Shown: piece by piece, positions 19,926-56,854 of the stretch | Numbering within the stretch: position 1 is the stretch's first letter | Layout: each line of letters begins with the position of its first letter | DNA from: Lusitaniella coriacea LEGE 07157 | Lineage (GTDB): Bacteria; Cyanobacteriota; Cyanobacteriia; Cyanobacteriales; Spirulinaceae | Length of the DNA stretch: 64,000 bases | Direction: 5' to 3' | Assembly (NCBI RefSeq): GCF_015207425.1 | Contig: NZ_JADEWZ010000025.1 | Location: 1-64,000, forward strand | Notes under the pieces: model-generated | What the model was told of the DNA's origin: nothing | Seen by the model: the letters and a program-made list of their open reading frames with translations, nothing else | The model's database searches: none | Program-made: the position numbers and the translations under genes

Positions 19926-20068
19926 GGAATTCTTGTGCTGAAGTTGCAACTTCTATTGTAATGATGTGCGCGATCGCGCCAGTCCTCTCCTAACATTTGA
20001 AATATCAGAAAAAACAAGACTGAGCTTGAGTTAGATTGAAGGAAATCCAGACTCAACCATTAAATCCC

Positions 20069-20359
20069 ATGACCGTACAATCTATCTCGCGGTACGTCAC
20101 GCGCGACCCCAAAATCTTACAGGGCGAACCCATCATTGTTCAAACAAGAACCTCCGTTCGAGCCATTGTGGGATTATGGCGTTTGGGGATGACACCTGAA
20201 GAAATTCCCACACACCTACCCCACATCACCCTCGCTCAAGTGTTTGATGCGTTGAGCTTTTATTTAGACCATCAAGAAGAAATTAATTCTTATATCGAAC
20301 AAAATCGCATTCCTGAAGACTTAATTCATCCTGCTGTTAAAGCAGTACTGGAACAATAG
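20069..20359 (+). CDS. DUF433 antitoxin-like protein
   Basis: The start at 20069 gives a 96-residue protein with the DUF433 core: YVTRDPKILQGEPIIVQTRTSVRAIV, LWRLGMTPEEIPTHLPHITLAQVFDALSF and a C-terminal helix. DUF433 proteins carry a winged or ribbon-type DNA-binding fold and are commonly the antitoxin partner of PIN-like DUF5615 toxins. The stop codon shares one base with the GTG start of the next gene, so the two are coupled. Autoregulation is expected from the family, but no operator was defined. Confidence 0.88.
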   Translation: MTVQSISRYVTRDPKILQGEPIIVQTRTSVRAIVGLWRLGMTPEEIPTHLPHITLAQVFDALSFYLDHQEEINSYIEQNRIPEDLIHPAVKAVLEQ

Positions 20360-20703
20360 TGAAACTGTTCGCTTCCATTTATACAGATGAAGATATCTCC
20401 GTTCTTGTTGCGACTTTACTGCGCGCGAAAGGTTTTAATGCAACAACAACCCGCGAACAGAGAATGCTCGGTCAAAGCGATCGCGCACAACTGGTTTATG
20501 CTATCTCTGTCGAGCGTTGCATACTCACTCATAACCGCAGAGATTTCGAGCGCTTGCATTTAGAGTATACGACTAAAGAGCAGCATCATTGGGGAATAGT
20601 CATCGTTCCTCACAAGAATCCTCAAGAAATTGCTCGGCGGGTGGCAATTTTACTCGATACGCTAACGGCTGATGAAATTGCCAATCAACTCTTGTACGTT
20701 TAG
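20359..20703 (+). CDS. DUF5615 PIN-like toxin candidate
   Basis: A 114-residue protein starting with GTG, directly coupled to the DUF433 gene. Features of the DUF5615/Mut7-C PIN-like fold: an acidic start (YTDEDISVLVATLLRAKGFN), RCILTHNRRDFERLH as the central strand and Asp, and a C-terminal RVAILLDTLTADEIANQLLY helix. PIN-like proteins are metal-dependent ribonucleases. The usual first acidic pair (DENI or DEDI) is retained as TDEDIS, so the protein may be active. It is likely the toxin of an intact type II pair; the target is not known. Confidence 0.85.
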   Translation: MKLFASIYTDEDISVLVATLLRAKGFNATTTREQRMLGQSDRAQLVYAISVERCILTHNRRDFERLHLEYTTKEQHHWGIVIVPHKNPQEIARRVAILLDTLTADEIANQLLYV

Positions 20704-21503: not shown

Positions 21504-23270
21504 TTAAAAAAGAAAGCTCGTTCGCAAAACACCAATCGTAATTGAATCGCTGTTTGGAGTGTGACGAGGGTTAAAGATTTGGATAATACCGGGCGTAATA
21601 CTAATATTATCCGTAATATTCATGCGATAGAACGCTTCAATTTGTAACGTCGTCCCCGGCTGTCCGCCAGCAGCGCCCACGCCCGTATTCAAAAAATCGG
21701 GGACATTGCTGCCAATGGGCAAATTACTGCTAACAATCTTGGGTGGAACTCCGATATAAATCCCTCCCAAATTCCCCTCTTTAAACAAATCTGGAAGGCT
21801 GAGGTACGCCATATAGTTTGTGGTTTGAACGCTTCCGGATTGCCCTGGAATGTGCGATGTGGTGTAACCGCCCCAAGCGCCCAACGTCACGGTGGGGGAA
21901 ATTTGCCAGTTTGCCGTTGCCCCGAATGCATGGGTTTGTAAGGGTTGCCCGTTAGCGGTGAGAGCGGAATCTCCAACGCCTGTAAAAAGGCTGCCATTAA
22001 TAGAATAATTATTAACGTAATGAAAGGCGATATCGAAAGGATCGGCTGGGGTGACGAGGACTTGGAGGGCTGCGGTGGTCACGCCATCAAATAAGCCTCT
22101 GGAGAGAATGCCAAAACGCCCTAAATTCAAGCTGGAATAAACCCCTTGGACGCTAACTTTTTCGGCAATTTGCCAATCGAAGGCAACCCCTGCGCTATTG
22201 TAGCCGCCAATCCATAAAATCGGGTTTCTTTGGGAAAAGAGGGAGAGCGAACCCGTTGCTGCGCCTTCAAAACGGTTGGGACCCCGGAAAGCGTTGAACA
22301 TATTAACTCCTTCGGTTCCCACGAGAACTGCAAAATTATCGGCAGCCAGCCAGTGGAAGTGGAGATCGAAGACATTCAATCCGCTGCTAGGAATTTCATA
22401 GGCGAGCAAACCATCGTTACTTACGGTGGGGTTGTTGGCTCCGGTACTGTTGAGCAACCCGATTTTCAGGTAACTGCGGGGATCGAAGTCCGTCCTGAGA
22501 AAAAGGAGGGAGAGGGTGGTCAGGTAGGGATCGCTGCGAGGGTCTTCGGTATCTGGGATGCCATCTCGTGGGTTGAGGTCTGCACGGTTGTCATTGCGGG
22601 CTTGAACCCCAAAAACGGTGATGCCTGAGAGTTTTGTTGTGGTGGAGAATTGATGGTTTTCGAGTTGGGCGGTGCGGGCTTCTAGGCTATCGACGCGACC
22701 TTGCAAAGATACGAGTTCGGTTTCAAATTCTTCTTGCAATCGGCGGAGGGTTTCTAAGTCTTCTCGCGTTATTCGCTCTCCCGCACCGAATTGGATAATT
22801 TCTTCAATCCTGCTCAAACAGGCGTTGAGTCCGGCGGCAAATTCGTAGCGGGAAAGGGGTCGATTGCCGCGATAGGTTCCGTCGGGATATCCAGCGAGAC
22901 AGTCGTAACGCTCTCGCAATTCGGCTAAGGCTTGGAATGCCCAGTCGGTGGGTTGAATATCGCGAAACTGTGATGCGGCGGGAATCTGCGCCATTGGATC
23001 GTCTTCGATTTCGCCTAATCCTTCGGGCTGTTGAGAGACTTCTGAAAGGGGGAAATTCGCTTCGTTCTGTTCGATTGAAGGGAAGGTTTCGAGATTGGGG
23101 TGCGTGACGTTTTCTTGGGGGGGAAGTGCGATTATATCGGAGATGTAGCTTTGCGAGATTGCGCGATCGCAATTACTGAAGGCAACGAACCCCGCTACCG
23201 GCAGCCACAAACAACGATAAGCTATTCCATGTTTGCAATTTCTTTGATTGCCGATTGATTTATTATTCAT
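21504..23270 (-). CDS. SLH-domain OprB-type outer-membrane porin
   Basis: Cyanobacterial major porin type (the SomA/SomB and iron-uptake porin group). The N-terminal signal peptide ends near residue 38. An SLH domain at about 103-160 (FRDIQPTDWAFQALAELRER, then GYPDGTYRGNRPLSRYEFAA) attaches it to pyruvylated wall polymer. A short coiled coil (about 175-205, LRRLQEEFETELVSLQGRVD) precedes the OprB-like beta barrel, which ends in an aromatic-terminated strand (GVLRTSFLF). The 588-residue length is normal. The Fur-family gene upstream suggests a possible metal link, but no Fur box was identified in front of it. Confidence 0.95.
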   Translation of the reverse strand: MNNKSIGNQRNCKHGIAYRCLWLPVAGFVAFSNCDRAISQSYISDIIALPPQENVTHPNLETFPSIEQNEANFPLSEVSQQPEGLGEIEDDPMAQIPAASQFRDIQPTDWAFQALAELRERYDCLAGYPDGTYRGNRPLSRYEFAAGLNACLSRIEEIIQFGAGERITREDLETLRRLQEEFETELVSLQGRVDSLEARTAQLENHQFSTTTKLSGITVFGVQARNDNRADLNPRDGIPDTEDPRSDPYLTTLSLLFLRTDFDPRSYLKIGLLNSTGANNPTVSNDGLLAYEIPSSGLNVFDLHFHWLAADNFAVLVGTEGVNMFNAFRGPNRFEGAATGSLSLFSQRNPILWIGGYNSAGVAFDWQIAEKVSVQGVYSSLNLGRFGILSRGLFDGVTTAALQVLVTPADPFDIAFHYVNNYSINGSLFTGVGDSALTANGQPLQTHAFGATANWQISPTVTLGAWGGYTTSHIPGQSGSVQTTNYMAYLSLPDLFKEGNLGGIYIGVPPKIVSSNLPIGSNVPDFLNTGVGAAGGQPGTTLQIEAFYRMNITDNISITPGIIQIFNPRHTPNSDSITIGVLRTSFLF

Positions 23271-23440
23271 ATTCAGCTTTACTCCTCACCAAGCCAGGGC
23301 AATTGATAATATCGAAGCACCCACATCCATTAGGATTCCCATAGCTTATCCAATCTTCAACACGCTGCCAAATTTTTGAAGGGCAAGGGTAATATCGTGA
23401 TTTTTGAGAGATTGGCGCGCCGCATCTCAAAATTTCAGCA

Positions 23441-23551
23441 ATTTAATGCCAAAGTTTCCGGATGATACCCCAAGAGAGGGGAAGTATGGAATGGTAGATG
23501 CACCCTGGTTCATCCTCTCCGACTCAACGAGATCGGGGGGATTTTTTTTTG
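23441..23551 (+). ncRNA. candidate small RNA, tandem unit 1 (111 bp)
   Basis: First of two head-to-tail 111-bp units. Within the unit: a CCCC-AAGAGA-GGGG hairpin (23468-23481), a GATGcACC/GGTtCATC hairpin (23497-23514), and at the end an interrupted stem ATCC..CCGA / TCGG..GGAT (23512-23542) running into nine T. This is the layout of a structured short transcript with its own terminator on the plus strand. No promoter was confirmed upstream. Confidence 0.45.
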
Positions 23552-23661
23552 ATTTAATTCCAAAGTTTCCGGATGGTACCCCAAGAGAGGGGAAGTATGG
23601 AATGGTAGATGCACCCTGGTTCATCCTCTCCGGCTCAATGAGATCGGGGGGATTTTTTTTG
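23552..23661 (+). ncRNA. candidate small RNA, tandem unit 2
   Basis: Second unit, differing from the first at about five positions and again ending in the GGGGGGAT hairpin plus eight T. The T-run ends one base before the stop codon of the oppositely oriented Fur-family gene, so a plus-strand transcript would stop just short of running antisense into it. The period is a multiple of three, which keeps spurious reading frames open on both strands. Confidence 0.45.
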
Positions 23662-24060
23662 TCAGATTTCTAGATTGTCTTGAGATTGACACTTTTCGCA
23701 CAATCCAAAAAATTCGAGGGTGTGATAGTACATCTTGAACTGATGAGATTGTTGGAGTTGGTTTTCGAGTTCGCGTACCGGACAGCAATCGATGGGAATA
23801 GAGCAACCGCAATCTAAACAAGTCAAATGATGCTGGTCTTTTTGAATTGGACTGTAGAGGGATTCGCCGTTAGAGAGCGTCCGAACTTGAATGGCTCCTC
23901 CCATCTTCAACGCTTCTAGGGAGCGATAAACTGTTGCTAGCCCCATACTCTGCTTTGAGGTGCGCAGTTCGAGATATAAATCTTGAGCGGAAATTTCTCG
24001 GTTAATGGTTTTTAGGAGCTTTAATACTTTTTCTTGGGAGCGAGTGCGTTGGACTTTCAT
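23662..24060 (-). CDS. Fur-family metalloregulator
   Basis: A 132-residue winged-helix repressor. The N-terminal half has the Fur DNA-binding helices (ISAQDLYLELRTSKQSMGLA, TVYRSLEAL). The C-terminal half has the metal and dimer region: the SLYSP strand, DQHHLTCLDCGCSIPIDCCPV and the late CEKC. Paired CxxC motifs (CLDC and CEKC) form the structural zinc site. The short hinge and the extra cysteines resemble zinc-responsive (Zur-type) members more than canonical iron Fur, but sequence reading alone cannot settle Fur, Zur or PerR. It is transcribed toward the tandem repeat and the porin gene. Confidence 0.92.
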   Translation of the reverse strand: MKVQRTRSQEKVLKLLKTINREISAQDLYLELRTSKQSMGLATVYRSLEALKMGGAIQVRTLSNGESLYSPIQKDQHHLTCLDCGCSIPIDCCPVRELENQLQQSHQFKMYYHTLEFFGLCEKCQSQDNLEI

Positions 24061-24186
24061 TTGCTAAATCGCGCTGTGCGGGAGTTAGAGGTTCTTCTAT
24101 CATAAGACGTTTGTGGGGAACCATTCTCTTTGCGCCCTACCCTTTGCGGTAAGATTGCTAATGTTGGCTTCACGAACTAAACGCCC

Positions 24187-24462
24187 ATGAGTAGTAAGTT
24201 TCACGCTCGCATTTATGTCACTCTTAGACCTTCTGTTCTCGATCCGGCTGGCGTTGCGGTGCAATCGGGACTCCAGCAAATGGGGTATGAAGGAATCGAG
24301 CAGGTTCGGATTGGCAAGTATATTGAGGTGAAGTTGAATGCAGCCGATGAAGCGGAGGCGAACCAACAGTTGGATGAAATGTGCGATGCGCTGTTGGCGA
24401 ACCCAGTGATTGAAAATTATTGTTTTGAATTGACGGCGTTACCTGTGGAGGCTGCGGCATGA
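24187..24462 (+). CDS. purS: phosphoribosylformylglycinamidine synthase subunit PurS
   Basis: Small subunit of the three-part FGAM synthase (PurS, PurQ, PurL), the fourth step of purine synthesis. At 91 residues it has the PurS fold signatures RIYVTLRPSVLDPAGVAVQS, MGYEGIEQVRIGKYIEV and NPVIENYCFEL. The stop overlaps the purQ start by 4 nt (ATGA), so the two are translationally coupled and likely made in equal amounts. purL is not in the window. Confidence 0.97.
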   Translation: MSSKFHARIYVTLRPSVLDPAGVAVQSGLQQMGYEGIEQVRIGKYIEVKLNAADEAEANQQLDEMCDALLANPVIENYCFELTALPVEAAA

Positions 24463-25154
24463 AATTTGGAACGATCGTATTTCCGGGGTCAAACTGCGAT
24501 CGCGATATGGCAATGGTGACGAGTCAGTTACTTAACCAACCGACGCGGATGATCTGGCATCAGGATACGGATTTGAGCGATATTGATGTGGTGATTCTTC
24601 CGGGGGGATTTAGTTACGGGGATTATTTGCGTTGCGGCGCGATCGCGCGATTCTCTCCCATTATGAATAGCGTACTGGAACACGCCAAGCAAGGGAAGTT
24701 TGTTCTGGGGATTTGTAACGGTTTTCAAGTCCTCACGGAAGTGGGATTATTACCGGGTGCGCTGGCACGAAATCGCGATCTCCACTTTATCTGCGATCGC
24801 GTCCCTCTCCGCGTCGAACGCACGGATGTTTCCTGGACGCAAGGATATGGAAAGAGAGACATTATTACCCTACCCCTTGCTCACGGTGAAGGTCGTTACT
24901 ATGCGGACGAGAATACCCTCAAAGCCTTGGAAGATAACGGACAGGTGTTGTTTCGCTACTGTAGCGCGATGGGGGAGATTGACGATGCGAGTAACCCTAA
25001 CGGTTCTTTGAATAATATTGCGGGAATCATTAACAAACAGGGTAATATTTTAGGGATGATGCCCCATCCCGAACGCGCCTCCGATCCGGTTTTAGGTGAA
25101 ACGGATGGGATGAAAATATTTGAGGGATTGCTTGCCTTGACTGCAATGGGTTAG
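24459..25154 (+). CDS. purQ: phosphoribosylformylglycinamidine synthase, glutaminase subunit PurQ
   Basis: Class I glutamine amidotransferase that feeds ammonia to PurL. The 231 residues contain the opening FGTIVFPGSNCDRDM, GGFSYGDYLRCGAIA, the nucleophile Cys in GICNGFQVLTEVGLLPG, the HGEGRYY segment, and the catalytic His and Glu in MPHPERASD. All triad residues are present. It forms an operon with purS by a 4-nt overlap. Confidence 0.97.
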   Translation: MKFGTIVFPGSNCDRDMAMVTSQLLNQPTRMIWHQDTDLSDIDVVILPGGFSYGDYLRCGAIARFSPIMNSVLEHAKQGKFVLGICNGFQVLTEVGLLPGALARNRDLHFICDRVPLRVERTDVSWTQGYGKRDIITLPLAHGEGRYYADENTLKALEDNGQVLFRYCSAMGEIDDASNPNGSLNNIAGIINKQGNILGMMPHPERASDPVLGETDGMKIFEGLLALTAMG

Positions 25155-27896: not shown

Positions 27897-30011
27897 TTAG
27901 AACCAATCATCATCCTCCTCGTCCCAATCATTTTGGTAACCGCCGCGATCTGGGGGACGGCGATCGGAATATCCACCGCGATCTGGGGGACGGCGATCGC
28001 GATATCCGCCGCGATCTGGGGGACGACGATCGGAATATCCACCGCGATCCGAACGATCCCAATCGGAGTATCCCCGATTGTAGGGATCGTCATAGGGATC
28101 GGGATCGTAGCCATAGGGAGAATTGCGATTGCCTCGTTCGTTATCTCCGGTTAAGGTGCGGCGAATCGAATCGATGATTCCCTCATCCTCATCGCCGTAC
28201 TGCGCTCTGACTTCTTGATTCAACTGATAGAGCGCATCTTGCAAGTCTGCTTGAGAACGATCGATTCCTCCTTCGTCATTGCGTTTGAGGTATTCTCGCA
28301 AGTCCGCGATCGCGCTTTCAATTTGACGGCGATAGTAACTGGCAAACTGACCGCCAAAATCCAAACTCACTTCTCGCAATCGTCGCTGAGATTGGTCGAT
28401 CAAAGCTTGCGCGCGATCGCGTTTTTCCACTTTCTCCCGCCGTTCGCGATCCACTTGAGCGAATTCTTCCGCCTCGCGAATCATGCGATTCACCTCTCCC
28501 TCGCTGAGGGTAGACGCACCTTGAATCACAATACTCTGCTCCCGTCCGGTGGTGCGATCCATCGCCGTCACTTGCAGAATCCCATTGGCATCGATATCAA
28601 AAGCTACTTGCACTTGAGGAATGCCGCGCGGCGCGGGGGGAATTCCCGTCAGTTTAAATCGTCCCAGGGATTTATTATCCTTTGACATTTCCCGTTCTCC
28701 TTGAAGAACGTGAATTTCCACCAGGGTTTGATTATTTTCCCCCGTAGAGAAGATATCGGAACGGCGCACGGGAATTGTCGTGTTGCGGGGAATGAGTTTT
28801 TTCATCACGCCGCTAACGGTTTCGAGTCCCAAGGACAGGGGGGTAACATCCAACAACAGGATGTCTGTTGTCCCTCCCGCCAGGATATCTCCTTGAATCG
28901 CCGCACCCACTGCAACCACTTCATCGGGATTGACATTTTGATTCGGTTCGCGATCGATAAAGCTGCGCACCAATCCTTGCACCAATGGGATGCGCGTCGA
29001 ACCGCCCACCAGCACCACTTCATCCACCTGAACGGGACTAATCCCCGCATCCTTCAGCGCTCGTTGTAGGGGACGACGCAAGCGACTCACCAAATCGCCG
29101 CACAAATTTTCAAATTCCAATCGCGTCAACCGCGTTTCAATGTGTTTTGGCCCATCATCTGTCGCGGTAATAAAGGGCAAATTGATCTCGGTGACGCTCA
29201 CCCCAGAAAGTTCGATTTTCGCCTTCTCTGCCGCTTCCATCAAGCGTTGCAATGCTTGACGATCGCGCCGCAAATCCACCCCTTCCGTTTCTAAAAACTT
29301 CTCCGCCAACCAATCCACAATTCGCTTATCAAAATCATTCCCCCCCAATTGGGTATCGCCACTGGTTGACAGAACTTCAAATACGCCGTCCCCAATATCC
29401 AGCAGCGAGACATCAAAGGTTCCACCGCCCAAATCAAAGACCAAAATCGTTTGAGTTTGCTGGCGATCTAAACCATAAGCCAGCGCTGCTGCTGTTGGTT
29501 CATTAATAATCCGCAGCACGTCCAACCCGGCAATTTGTCCGGCATCGCGAGTTGCCTGTCGTTGGGAATCGTTAAAATATGCCGGAACCGTTACCACAAT
29601 TTCCCTAATGGGTTCGCCCAAATAGCGTTCTGCTTCCTCGGTTAACTTGCGCAGAATCATCGCAGAGACTTCCTCTGGGGCAAACTCTTTGCGCAAGCGG
29701 GGACAGCGAATTTTTACATTACCTTGCTCATCGCGGCGAATGGTGTAGGGAACGCGCTTAGATTCTGGCGTGAGTTCCCCATACTTGCGTCCCATAAAAC
29801 GTTTAATGCCGTAAAACGTGTTTTGGGGGTTGAGAACTGCTTGTCGTCGTGCCATTTGTCCAACGACTAACTCTCCGTCCTTATTAATGCCAACCACAGA
29901 AGGTGTGGTACGCATTCCTTCGGCATTGGCAATTACGATGGGTTTACTTCCTTCCATCACTGCCACAACTGAGTTGGTTGTTCCTAAGTCGATGCCGACT
30001 ACTCTACCCAT
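27897..30011 (-). CDS. dnaK3: Hsp70 chaperone DnaK with acidic repetitive tail (DnaK3 type)
   Basis: ATP-driven folding chaperone. The N-terminal ATPase opens with [17 protein letters not shown] and has [16 protein letters not shown] and the linker region [14 protein letters not shown]. The substrate domain covers about 390-540, with a helical lid to about 620. The last about 65 residues depart from normal DnaK: a DP/DY-rich stretch, then three near-perfect copies of a [10 protein letters not shown] unit and an EEDDDWF end. Cyanobacterial DnaK3, reported to be thylakoid-associated and paired with a downstream dnaJ, has such an extended tail, which is why I use that symbol. The repeats are also visible in the DNA (about 27945-28060). 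Length 704 residues. Confidence 0.93.
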
Positions 30012-47097: not shown

Positions 47098-47627
47098 AAG
47101 TACGAAATGATGAGGGCGGGTTTTGAAGCAATTTGCTTGGAACCCGCTTTTTTTTATAGCTATAGCCATAACAGTTATCAGGGGGAATAGGGAATAGGGA
47201 ATAGGGAATAGGGAACAGGGAACAGGGAATAGGGAATAGGGAATAGCGCCGAGACCCCGCGTCGCACGGGGCGTATAAACTTTGGAGGAAACCTCCAAAG
47301 ACAGCCCCTCCGTCAGGCGCAAACGTCCGGCACAAGCATTTGAGGAGACCTCAAATGACGCGGACTTGGGAACGCTCGGCAAGACAGGGAATAGGGAATA
47401 GGGAATAGGTTTTTTCAGTTATCAATCATTCAGTCATCACCGTGTCTCCGTGTCTCCGTGTCACCCACTCTCCGTCTCCCCGTCTCCCGGTCACTGAGCG
47501 TGTCGAAGTGCCGTGTCATCCAAAAACTCCCCCAGCTTCCTCAGCTTCCTCTGCTCCCCACTCTCCCCGTCACCCCAACTCCCCTTCACCGATGTCCTAA
47601 TACTCCTGGTTATAGCGATAGTTTGGG
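47098..47627. repeat. 530-bp intergenic cluster of four repeat types
   Basis: No gene. In order: GGGAATA heptamers, nine copies with a few GGGAACA variants (47183-47245); a hairpin element bounded by AGCGCCGAG and CTTGGGAACGCTCGGCAAG (47243-47386) with two 9-bp stems CTTTGGAGG-AAA-CCTCCAAAG (47280-47300) and CATTTGAGG-AGA-CCTCAAATG (47337-47357); three more GGGAATA units (47387-47407); and an inverted copy (47470-47625) of the repeat at 10697. This is a hot spot where several families have nested. Confidence 0.8.
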
Positions 47628-50676: not shown

Positions 50677-53600
50677 ATGGACGAACAACGCATTCAAGCT
50701 TACCTCGCGCTGATTCAAGAACTCCTTGCTTGTCCCGGTGGGGAAGAAAACCAAGTCCTCAATCGCCATTCGGAATTGATTGATGAAGGATTTGTTCAAA
50801 TGTGCGGCGTGGTGGCGGAACAGATGCGAGGGGAGGGGGGAGAAGATGAGGCGGGGTTTTTGCTTCAGGTGGCGCAACAGGTGGCGGAATATCTCCAAAA
50901 TGCGGAAAAACCTCGTAGGGGCGCAACGCTTGCGCCCGAAACCGCGTCCGAATCTTGCGACGGAACTCAACCCAACGCAACACCGGAGGAGTATTTCAGA
51001 TTTTTAATGCAGGTGTTGCAAGCTATCGTTGAAAGCAAAAACAATCCCCAGGTCGTTTATCCGATCCTCGCGCAGCATCAAGACAAACTCGACCTAGTTT
51101 TTGCAGAGATTCTCAAACGGTGGTTTGAAGCCGAACTCGACCCCGATGATTCAGAGAAAAATCAAGCTTTGGCGGCAATCCTGAATAGTTTTGCGGTTGA
51201 TATTCAAGAATTTCCCTTGGGAAGTCGAGCAAATAATATTGAAATCGCGATCGCGGCATACGAAAAAGCCCTCCAAATCCGTACCCGCGAAGCCTTTCCC
51301 CAAGATTGGGCAATGACCCAAAACAACCTGGGCAATGCCTACTCCGACCGCATCACCGGAGAGCGAGCCGAAAACCTCGACCGCGCGATCGCCTCCTACA
51401 ACAACGCCCTCCAAATCCGTACCCGCGAAGCCTTTCCCCAAGATTGGGCAACGACCCAAAACAACCTGGGGACTGCCTACAACAACCGCATCACCGGAGA
51501 GCGAGCCGAAAACCTCGACCGCGCGATCCGCATTTATCAAGAAGCTCTTGAAGTCTGTACCCGTACCGCTTTCCCCCAAAACCACACAGAAACCCTCAAT
51601 AACTTAGGCTTCACCTACCAAGATCAATCTCGCCACTACACCGCAGACCCCGAAAAGAAACAAACCGCTCTCCACAACGCCTACAACACCTTTGAACAAG
51701 CCCTCGATACCGTCGAATTCCTGCGAGGCGAAATCGTTTCTGGTGACGAAGCCAAACGCAAACTCAACGAAGAATGGAACAGACTCTATCGCGGCATGGT
51801 GGAAGTGTGCCTAGAGTTGGGCAACCACAACACTGCTATTGAATACGTTGACCGCAGCAAAGCCCGCAACCTCGTGGAACTCATCGCCATCCGCGACGCA
51901 TACCCCGAATGCGAAATTCCTTCTAAAGTTCGCCAACGCCTGCAAGACCTCCGCCAAGCCATCGACGAGGAAGAACGCCGCCTCAACCAAGACCCCAACC
52001 CCAACTACACCCACATCACCCAATTGCGGCAGGAATTCCAAAACAAATTCCCCTACAAACCCGTCACCTTCGACCAAATCCAAGGATTATTGGACGAAGA
52101 AACCGCGATTCTCGAATGGTATATCCTCGGCGACAAATTCCTCACCTTTACCCTCACTTCCCAAACCCTTAACCTTTGGACATCTTCTGAAGATGACTTA
52201 GAGCAATTGGGTAACTGGGCTGTTGAATACTTAACCGCTTATTACCAATCCAAAGAGCCTTTGCAAAAAGCTTCGGACGCACTAAAAGAAGCCAAAACGG
52301 ACGAGGAAACAAAAGAAGCTCAGCGACTGCTGAAAGAAGCCCAAGAAATTTGGCAAAATCCCCTCGCCGAACGCCTCGAAATCCTCGCTCAAATCCTCCA
52401 CCTCGACGAAATCCTCCACAACCTCTTTGAAAACTTCCCCTCCTGCAAAAAACTGATCCTCATCCCTCACCGTTACCTGCACCTGTTCCCCCTTCACGCT
52501 CTCCCCATAGTCATCTCCGTCGGGGCGGATGGCATCCGCCCTGTCCCTCCAAGGAACAAAACCCCAGAGGACGCAAGCATTGCGCCCCTACAGGAATTGT
52601 TTGGGAATGGTGTCGCCTACGCCCCCAACTGCCAACTGTTGCAACAAGCCCAAAATCGCTCCCGCCCGGACTTTAAAAGCCTCTTCGCCATCCAGAACCC
52701 CAAGGAAAACCTCGCTTTCGCCGACCTCGAAGTTGAAACCATCAGCAACATCTTCCCCAAACCCACCATCCTTGAAAGAAAGAAAGCCAAAAAATCCGCT
52801 CTCCTCTCCTCCCGCGAAGACCTCACCCAAACCAATCATCTCTACTTCTCCTGTCACGCCGCTTTCAACAACACCTCTCCCCTCGACTCCGGTTTAGAAC
52901 TTGCCGATGGTATTCTCACCCTTGAAGATATCATCAGTTCTCTCAACCTCAGTCGATGCAGTCTCGTCACCCTTTCCGCCTGCGAAACCGGACAAGTCGC
53001 AATTGACACCACCGACGAATATATCAGCCTTGCTAGCGGTTTCATCCTTGCAGGAAGTCCCAGCGTCATTGTCACCCAATGGTCGGTGAATCAAGTCTCC
53101 ACCGCCCTCCTCTTGATGAAAACCTACGAAACCCTCCAACAAAATCCCGGTAAACTTACCATCGCACTCAAAACCGCTCAAATTTGGCTGCGAGACACCA
53201 CCGTTGAAGGGTTTAAGGAATGGGTGCAACAGTCCCCCCTCCTGACCAACAGTTGGCGTAAGACACTCCAAACATTTTTCAACAATATGGCGGACAATAA
53301 AGATAGGAAGCCCTACCAGTCCCCCTATCATTGGGCGGCGTTTTGTGTTGTCGGAAAAGGAGAACAAAAAATGGCAAGCGATGCCGATAAAATTCAAGCG
53401 TTTGTGAGTCTCATTGAAGAAAATACCGATAAGCTTGTTGCCGAACACGGGCAGAGTTTGAGCGAACTGCGAAACCAACTCGGTGATGATGATGAAAAAA
53501 ATGTGGAAGTAATTGAAAAGTGGTTGCAAGACACGGACAATCAGCTCTATCAAACCTATTCTCAAACCTTAGACTCGATTAATCCCCTATTAGGTGCAAC

Positions 53601-56768: not shown

Positions 56769-56815
56769 AATTGGTAATTGGTAATTGGTAATTGGTAATT
56801 GGTAATTGGTAATTG
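56769..56815. repeat. heptanucleotide tandem repeat AATTGGT
   Basis: Six uninterrupted copies of AATTGGT (56769-56810) plus AATTG, between pepA and the methyltransferase gene. This is a short tandemly repeated repetitive (STRR) sequence of the cyanobacterial kind. Confidence 0.9.
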
Positions 56816-56854
56816 CGAATTGTTACCCCGTCTCCCCCTCTTCCCCGCGTCAGC

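Follow-up and report, generated by a model that had tools for sequence, protein, structure and literature searches.

A tandem pair of predicted NsiR1 small RNA genes with DIF1 motifs beside a Fur-family gene in a cyanobacterium with hetR but no nifH match over cut-off

In Lusitaniella coriacea LEGE 07157, two near-identical units stand head to tail in the gap between two minus-strand genes, and the question was what these units are. They lie in the window, by which we mean the whole stretch of 64,000 nucleotides that was analysed (positions 1 to 64,000 of contig NZ_JADEWZ010000025.1). An earlier note on this DNA had described tandem 111-bp units between a porin and a Fur-family gene, each with two hairpins and a terminal stem followed by T8-T9 on the plus strand. 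Tandem Repeats Finder confirmed the repeat (23441-23660, two 111-bp units, head to tail, 96% matches, no indels). The units differ by four bases and by one T (T9 versus T8), so that unit 1 comprises 111 bp (23441-23551, plus strand) and unit 2, whose T-run is one shorter, 110 bp (23552-23661, plus strand). Both have the same architecture of promoter, putative RNA gene and terminator. The flanking genes were also as described: on one side an SLH/OprB porin gene of the 'iron uptake porin' family (21504-23270, minus strand; open reading frame, profile matches), on the other the gene of a Fur-family regulator (23662-24060, minus strand; open reading frame, PF01475), which is convergent with the pair.

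Both units matched the Rfam family RF02399 (NsiR1) over the full model (1-60 of 60), with 47.4 bits for copy 1 and 47.6 bits for copy 2 (cut-off 39, E about 3e-6); at the Rfam cut-offs, the 64-kb window gave no further match. With the 5' end predicted from the Rfam match, copy 1 occupies 23492-23549 and copy 2 23603-23660 of the plus strand, 58 nt each. About position -35 from the predicted RNA start, each unit carries the hexamer TCCGGA (23457-23462 and 23568-23573, plus strand). TCCGGA at -35 is DIF1, a motif reported for promoters that are specific to heterocysts, the nsiR1 promoter among them (PMC6133370). TCCGGA followed by GTAGATG 27-31 bases further on occurred exactly twice in the window (23457 and 23568), against a mean of 0.00 in 100 shuffles. 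Features of the family were thus present in both units, namely a score above 39 bits, a length of about 60 nt with hairpin and T-run, and an exact TCCGGA near -35. Judging from the sequence, we concluded that each unit is a complete NsiR1 gene, so that a known cyanobacterial sRNA family has two members at a new place. The suggestion that the units are small RNAs, or one RNA gene recently duplicated, was borne out by the RF02399 matches and by the tandem near-identity.

The columns of the 5' core were invariant or nearly invariant in an alignment of 41 NsiR1 copies. This core, TGGTAGATGCACCCTG in copy 1 (23492-23507, plus strand) and located at 23603-23618 (plus strand) in copy 2, is the presumed pairing region. 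Downstream, sequence and fold revealed the plus-strand terminal stem and T-run as noted earlier, i.e. a terminator-like hairpin at 23515-23540 with a T9 run at 23542-23550 in copy 1, and a hairpin at 23626-23651 with a T8 run at 23653-23660 in copy 2. The predicted fold of the RNA consists of this single terminal hairpin and a weak 5' pairing, the latter missing in the centroid. Of the two hairpins per unit claimed before, the terminal one was retained, while the other (CCCCAAGAGAGGGG) proved to be a weak palindrome inside the promoter; it resides in the spacer that separates DIF1 from the predicted start of the RNA and should therefore be outside the RNA. The promoter halves folded no better than shuffled sequences (z -0.65 and -0.45), and the terminal hairpins were about as stable as expected from base composition (z -0.43 and -0.54 versus shuffles). 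A simple terminator scan of 22500-24500 gave no hit, the hairpins probably being missed owing to a bulge in the stem. With a DIF1 promoter, a 58-nt RNA, a hairpin and T8-T9, each unit is equipped as a complete gene would be.

The unit length of 111 being a multiple of three, an open plus-strand frame of 89 aa (23404-23673) extends across the two units, and it might be taken for the gene of a small protein. The chance of this is negligible in our opinion. Both DIF1 motifs and both hairpins with their T-runs fall within the frame. Each of the four substitutions by which the units differ would replace an amino acid (M/I, D/G, D/G, T/M), and in other genomes the RNA core, not the frame, is conserved.

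NsiR1 was reported to be induced by nitrogen stress in a HetR-dependent manner, early in cells turning into heterocysts, and to repress hetF and alr3234 in Nostoc sp. PCC 7120, acting in trans on alr3234 (PMC9045159). The NsiR1 array upstream of hetF in that strain shares with the window pair the RNA core, the length of about 60 nt, the hairpin with T-run, DIF1 near -35, the head-to-tail order and a promoter of its own for each copy. However, the array comprises 12 copies upstream of hetF, whereas the window contains two copies at a porin/Fur-family locus and, unlike the Nostoc setting of NsiR1, belongs to a genome without nifH over the cut-off. A placement upstream of and antisense to hetF was not found for the window pair; it was found for a copy on another contig (C12). 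NsiR1 in a strain that does not form heterocysts is already known from Limnospira indica PCC 8005, which possesses hetR and patS. Its NsiR1-like RNA162 (57 nt) was reported as a single RNA responding to gamma radiation, and the accessible part of that account describes neither a promoter class nor conservation of the locus nor a tandem pair (PMC8400943). Two other HetR-dependent sRNAs of Nostoc, NsiR8 and NsiR9, were ruled out by size (171 and 122 nt versus 58 nt); their homologs were reported in heterocystous strains only (PMC4734099). The Nostoc transcripts as_gltA, as_hglD and as_acsF are DIF1-driven non-coding RNAs antisense to mRNA, which by their description stand outside the NsiR1 family (PMC10287535).

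In the genome to which the window belongs (5.86 Mb, 99.96% complete), ten dispersed NsiR1 matches were found, seven of them over the cut-off. The best one, on contig C12, adjoins hetF and lies opposite its leader, as in Nostoc; the HetF-model score in this genome was 760.6 bits versus an equivalog cut-off of 1200. An open hetR frame of 300 aa is present. The frame upstream of hetR begins in a signal-like manner and contains the RGSGR motif twice; it is PatX-like by motif, and TCCGGA is located further upstream. No nifH over the cut-off was detected in the genome; the best match reached 217 bits versus 394, a range also seen in genomes without nitrogenase. Hence the gene content as predicted includes HetR, a PatX-like frame, HetF and NsiR1, but no sign of nitrogenase by nifH. 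As no nifH exceeded the cut-off, heterocysts are unlikely, and this cyanobacterium probably makes none.

The earlier note had named an ordinary repeat scattered across the genome as the contrary outcome. Ten matches do occur, but only the 5' core and the hairpin-plus-T design recur in them, and the eight matches beyond the window pair differ in promoter and hairpin sequence. An ordinary interspersed repeat (REP, MITE or mobile) was therefore rejected, the whole unit with its flanks not being scattered. The ten predicted loci make up a gene family and are not copies of a mobile or REP-type element. Two of the copies, C12b (L050 8496-8551, minus strand) and C2 (L054 7336-7392, minus strand), share a promoter and body type of their own (TCCGGAAATCA..., AGTAGATGCAT) and form a putative divergent NsiR1 subgroup.

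We also determined the distribution of NsiR1 over the phylum. Of 386 genomes, 80 were over the cut-off for NsiR1 and 80 for HetR_C. Both were present in 78 genomes, NsiR1 only in two, HetR only in two and neither in 304, counts that treat genomes as independent without tree correction and in which the agreement is inflated because many of the 304 double negatives are distant members of the phylum. NsiR1 tracked HetR, not nifH, over the 386 genomes. The two genomes with HetR only (G058 and G083) contained sub-cut-off NsiR1 matches and are among 15 genomes with such matches that were counted negative. The two with NsiR1 only (G229 and G308) were also negative in a search with the HetR protein, and they count against the explanation given below. 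In the four copies of G229 (L077) and in that of G308 (L089), DIF1 showed exactly one mismatch (five of five), as if the motif decayed without HetR, the copies being too few for a firmer statement.

The 78 genomes with NsiR1 and HetR bear 15 family labels; 42 of them belong to family f6, which we read as Nostocaceae, and 36 to other families. Among these 36, nifH was over the cut-off in 15 and below it in 21. The strictness of the nifH cut-off is apparent from family f6, where 14 of 42 genomes also fall below it. Several of the latter gave partial nifH matches of about 250 bits, as from a broken nifH, while the 21 nifH-negative genomes outside f6 had the lower kind of match only (E 1e-63 to 1e-66). 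Fifteen genomes possess nifH without HetR, and NsiR1 was over the cut-off in none of them. A systematic link of NsiR1 and HetR in genomes without nifH was not encountered in the accessible text of the open-licence literature.

The Rfam model is confined to the RNA, so that the promoters played no part in the detection of the copies and provide independent evidence. We sampled 122 distinct copies by the core pattern from 28 genomes outside f6, including the window genome; copies outside the core pattern and several copies of G360 are missing from this sample. Between -44 and -25, TCCGGA was exact in 78 of the 122 copies and had one mismatch in 34, compared with none and one, respectively, in the control stretch from -75 to -56. 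In the tighter stretch from -40 to -29, DIF1 was found in 110 copies, and with L174, where it is exact just outside, in 111. Nine of the 11 copies without DIF1 exhibited the palindrome GGGGTNNNACCCC between -70 and -10 with at most two mismatches (eight with at most one), by eye often followed by a TATA-like -10 box. At one mismatch or less it was present in none of the 110 DIF1 copies and in 0.34% of random windows, at two or less in three of the 110 and in 2.0%, respectively. The palindrome fits the HetR site GAGGGGTCTAACCCCTC, in which GGGnnnnnCCC is required (PMC4192349, PMC4649674).

Thus, 120 of the 122 copies possess a HetR-linked promoter element, either DIF1 or the palindrome, the exceptions being L146 and L153, and nearly all collected copies seem to be wired to HetR by one of the two routes. 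The copies with the palindrome represent a putative second promoter class of the NsiR1 family, which was not encountered in the accessible open-licence literature. Two of them are located in the window genome (C18:80152-80205 and C31:47021-47077; L055 and L056). Further palindrome copies without DIF1 are L134, L145, L149, L167, L169 and L172; in these and in the two of the window genome, the palindrome is centred on the region from about -30 to -40. We also inspected nine distinct copies that the core pattern does not match; eight of them had DIF1 with at most one mismatch and L127 had none, while two more off-pattern copies are near-identical repeats of a counted copy.

Prediction of a shared structure from the alignment of 41 copies yielded no pairs because the sequence alignment leaves the hairpin arms out of register, and no covariation is claimed. 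When each copy was folded separately, a hairpin directly before the T-run was obtained for 107 of the 122 copies. By eye, about 11 of the 15 failures had been cut at an internal T-run, two had a stable hairpin that lay a few bases too far from the run, and two were without such a run.

Clustering of the neighbours of the collected copies disclosed two recurrent places. NsiR1 stands beside hetF in nine of the 28 genomes, always upstream and on the opposite strand, and beside lgt and/or cobM in 20 (18 with cobM, two with lgt only), a count that leaves out a Lgt match in G011 (40% identity, about 0.8 kb off). All 18 cobM-linked copies are upstream of cobM on the opposite strand. In 15 of 15 f6 genomes, chosen from the 42, an NsiR1 core with TTCCGGA was present between lgt and cobM. 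By contrast, among HetR-negative genomes with a cobM match (14 of 15 searched), none of the 14 had an NsiR1 core within 1.5 kb, while lgt was there in six. The copy opposite cobM is, as predicted from this placement, a second conserved NsiR1 gene besides the hetF copy. No mention of it was encountered in the accessible text of the open-licence literature, and it may have been listed earlier.

This copy bears on the origin of the window pair. CCCTGGTT occurs in the core region of both window copies, in 12 of 23 lgt/cobM copies and in none of 97 others; at the lgt-cobM place it was also found in all 15 f6 copies. The signature CCCUGGUU is common to the window pair and the lgt-cobM copy found in other genomes, which differs from the pair in place and hairpin. 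Most likely, the window pair was derived from the lgt-cobM copy. The Fur-family protein has 12 relatives at 64-72% identity. Its gene was located 30 times in 29 other genomes (30 genomes searched, one without a match, G116 being the sole genome of the same family among them), and no NsiR1 core was detected within about 1.5 kb of any of these loci. Hence the pair looks lineage-specific. Its presence at this place in one of the 30 genomes examined, and the near-identity of the copies, as after recent duplication, would also suit a relic, i.e. an unselected duplication of NsiR1, expressed or not, that has no role of its own. We regard this as unlikely. Neither copy shows damage to the promoter motif, the core, the hairpin or the T-run, and the stem can still pair despite the base changes within the RNA.

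The location between the 'iron uptake porin' gene and the Fur-family gene had led to the speculation that the units give rise to a metal-stress RNA, i.e. sRNAs under control of the neighbouring regulator that act on the porin or on metal genes. The Fur-family gene, which we take to be Zur/FurB, remained below the cut-off of every NCBIfam Fur, PerR and Zur model. Among five start regions, that of the porin gave the best duplex with the 5' part of the RNA (-21.2 kcal/mol), but 18% of the shuffles equalled or surpassed this value, and there was no evidence for membership of the porin gene in the NsiR1 system. A Zur-type palindrome with up to three mismatches, searched with a pattern that we presume to represent the operator, does not occur in the window. 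Moreover, the promoters are of the DIF1 kind, the family is known for nitrogen stress and HetR dependence, and at the 30 Fur-family loci no conserved linkage with NsiR1 was seen. The metal-stress reading was therefore abandoned as very improbable.

A different role of the Fur-family gene follows from its position. Its stop codon (23662-23664) starts 2 nt past the T-run of copy 2, so that the mRNA should end inside NsiR1 or run through it in antisense. We infer that a 3' extension of this mRNA would be antisense to NsiR1, with whatever relevance this contact may have. As there is no room for a terminator of the Fur-family gene before NsiR1, one could suppose a local cis-antisense device that works by collision or pairing with the convergent mRNA and has no role in trans. 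This seems improbable to us, though less so than a metal-stress RNA. The core is of the trans type, conserved and identical to copies elsewhere, the pair has promoters and T-runs of its own, and the NsiR1 family acts in trans on alr3234 in Nostoc (PMC9045159).

Instead, we consider it probable that the window contains two HetR-induced NsiR1 genes, derived from the lgt-cobM copy and then doubled, whose core pairs with mRNAs placed antisense to NsiR1 genes. An sRNA of about 58 nt would be made from each unit once HetR becomes active, probably upon nitrogen step-down, and the cells concerned would be those in whichever state is under HetR control here. The 5' core would pair with mRNAs that bear its complement, chiefly those transcribed through the opposite strand of NsiR1 genes; candidates are the hetF leader, the lgt-cobM junction and the 3' extension of the Fur-family gene. 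Pairing may lower translation or stability of the target, as described for two targets of Nostoc sp. PCC 7120, hetF and alr3234. Derivation of the pair from the lgt-cobM copy and its subsequent doubling would have raised the dosage and brought the Fur-family mRNA into antisense contact.

The first 19 nt of copy 1 are predicted to pair without interruption with the opposite strand of the NsiR1 copies at lgt-cobM, at hetF and in the window (-34.6 to -37.4 kcal/mol), while the best of 1499 background windows reached -24.3 kcal/mol. These perfect duplexes are due to the antisense placement and need mRNAs running that far. The complement pattern was found at 16 sites of the genome, eight of which are the NsiR1 genes themselves; the eight others, versus five for the reversed control, reside mostly inside or antisense to open frames. 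Duplexes of the window RNA with the start regions of the porin gene, the Fur-family gene, purS, hetF and hetR were at shuffle level. The lowest shuffle fraction in ten duplex tests was 3% (own hetF copy versus hetF start), which is not significant over ten. From complement sites and duplex tests, no independent trans target emerged in the window genome. Changing or deleting the -10 box of nsiR1.1 in Nostoc was reported to alter the hetF promoter-gfp signal little (PMC8406250), a result that counts against repression of hetF by NsiR1. The lack of a nifH over the cut-off also counts against our explanation, since the published heterocyst setting of NsiR1 is missing here, and so do the shuffle-level stability of the hairpins and the negative terminator scan.

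The presence of NsiR1 in a genome without nifH over the cut-off points to a wider job for NsiR1 and HetR. We tentatively propose, with somewhat less than even confidence, that NsiR1 is in essence no heterocyst RNA but the general sRNA arm of HetR in multicellular cyanobacteria. It would comprise two old antisense genes, at hetF and at lgt-cobM, wiring by DIF1 or the palindrome, and additional lineage-specific copies by which new genes are recruited. If so, the window pair would draw the Fur-family regulator into the HetR network by its antisense position. In species without heterocysts, the roles of hetR and patX were said to 'remain a mystery' (PMC11298460). NsiR1 offers a concrete handle on them, having promoters with HetR-linked elements and a core that is shared by many families, whether nifH is present or not, and this setting makes a role of HetR outside heterocysts testable. 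For those working on Nostoc, the copy opposite cobM is a candidate second NsiR1 gene beside the hetF array.

Some minor features of the window may be mentioned. At 20036-20703 (plus strand), two small overlapping genes resemble a toxin-antitoxin pair, the first presumably DUF433-like and the second encoding a DUF5615 protein. Tandem repeats of 33 bp and 66 bp (27936-28073) reside in the tail of the minus-strand gene 27897-30011, which we assume to be DnaK-like. A repeat of 138 bp (51246-51528, 2.1 copies, 91% alike) is, as we presume, probably TPR-coding. Finally, two heptamers are repeated in tandem, GGGAATA at 47183-47246 (9.1 copies) and AATTGGT at 56769-56822 (6.7 copies).
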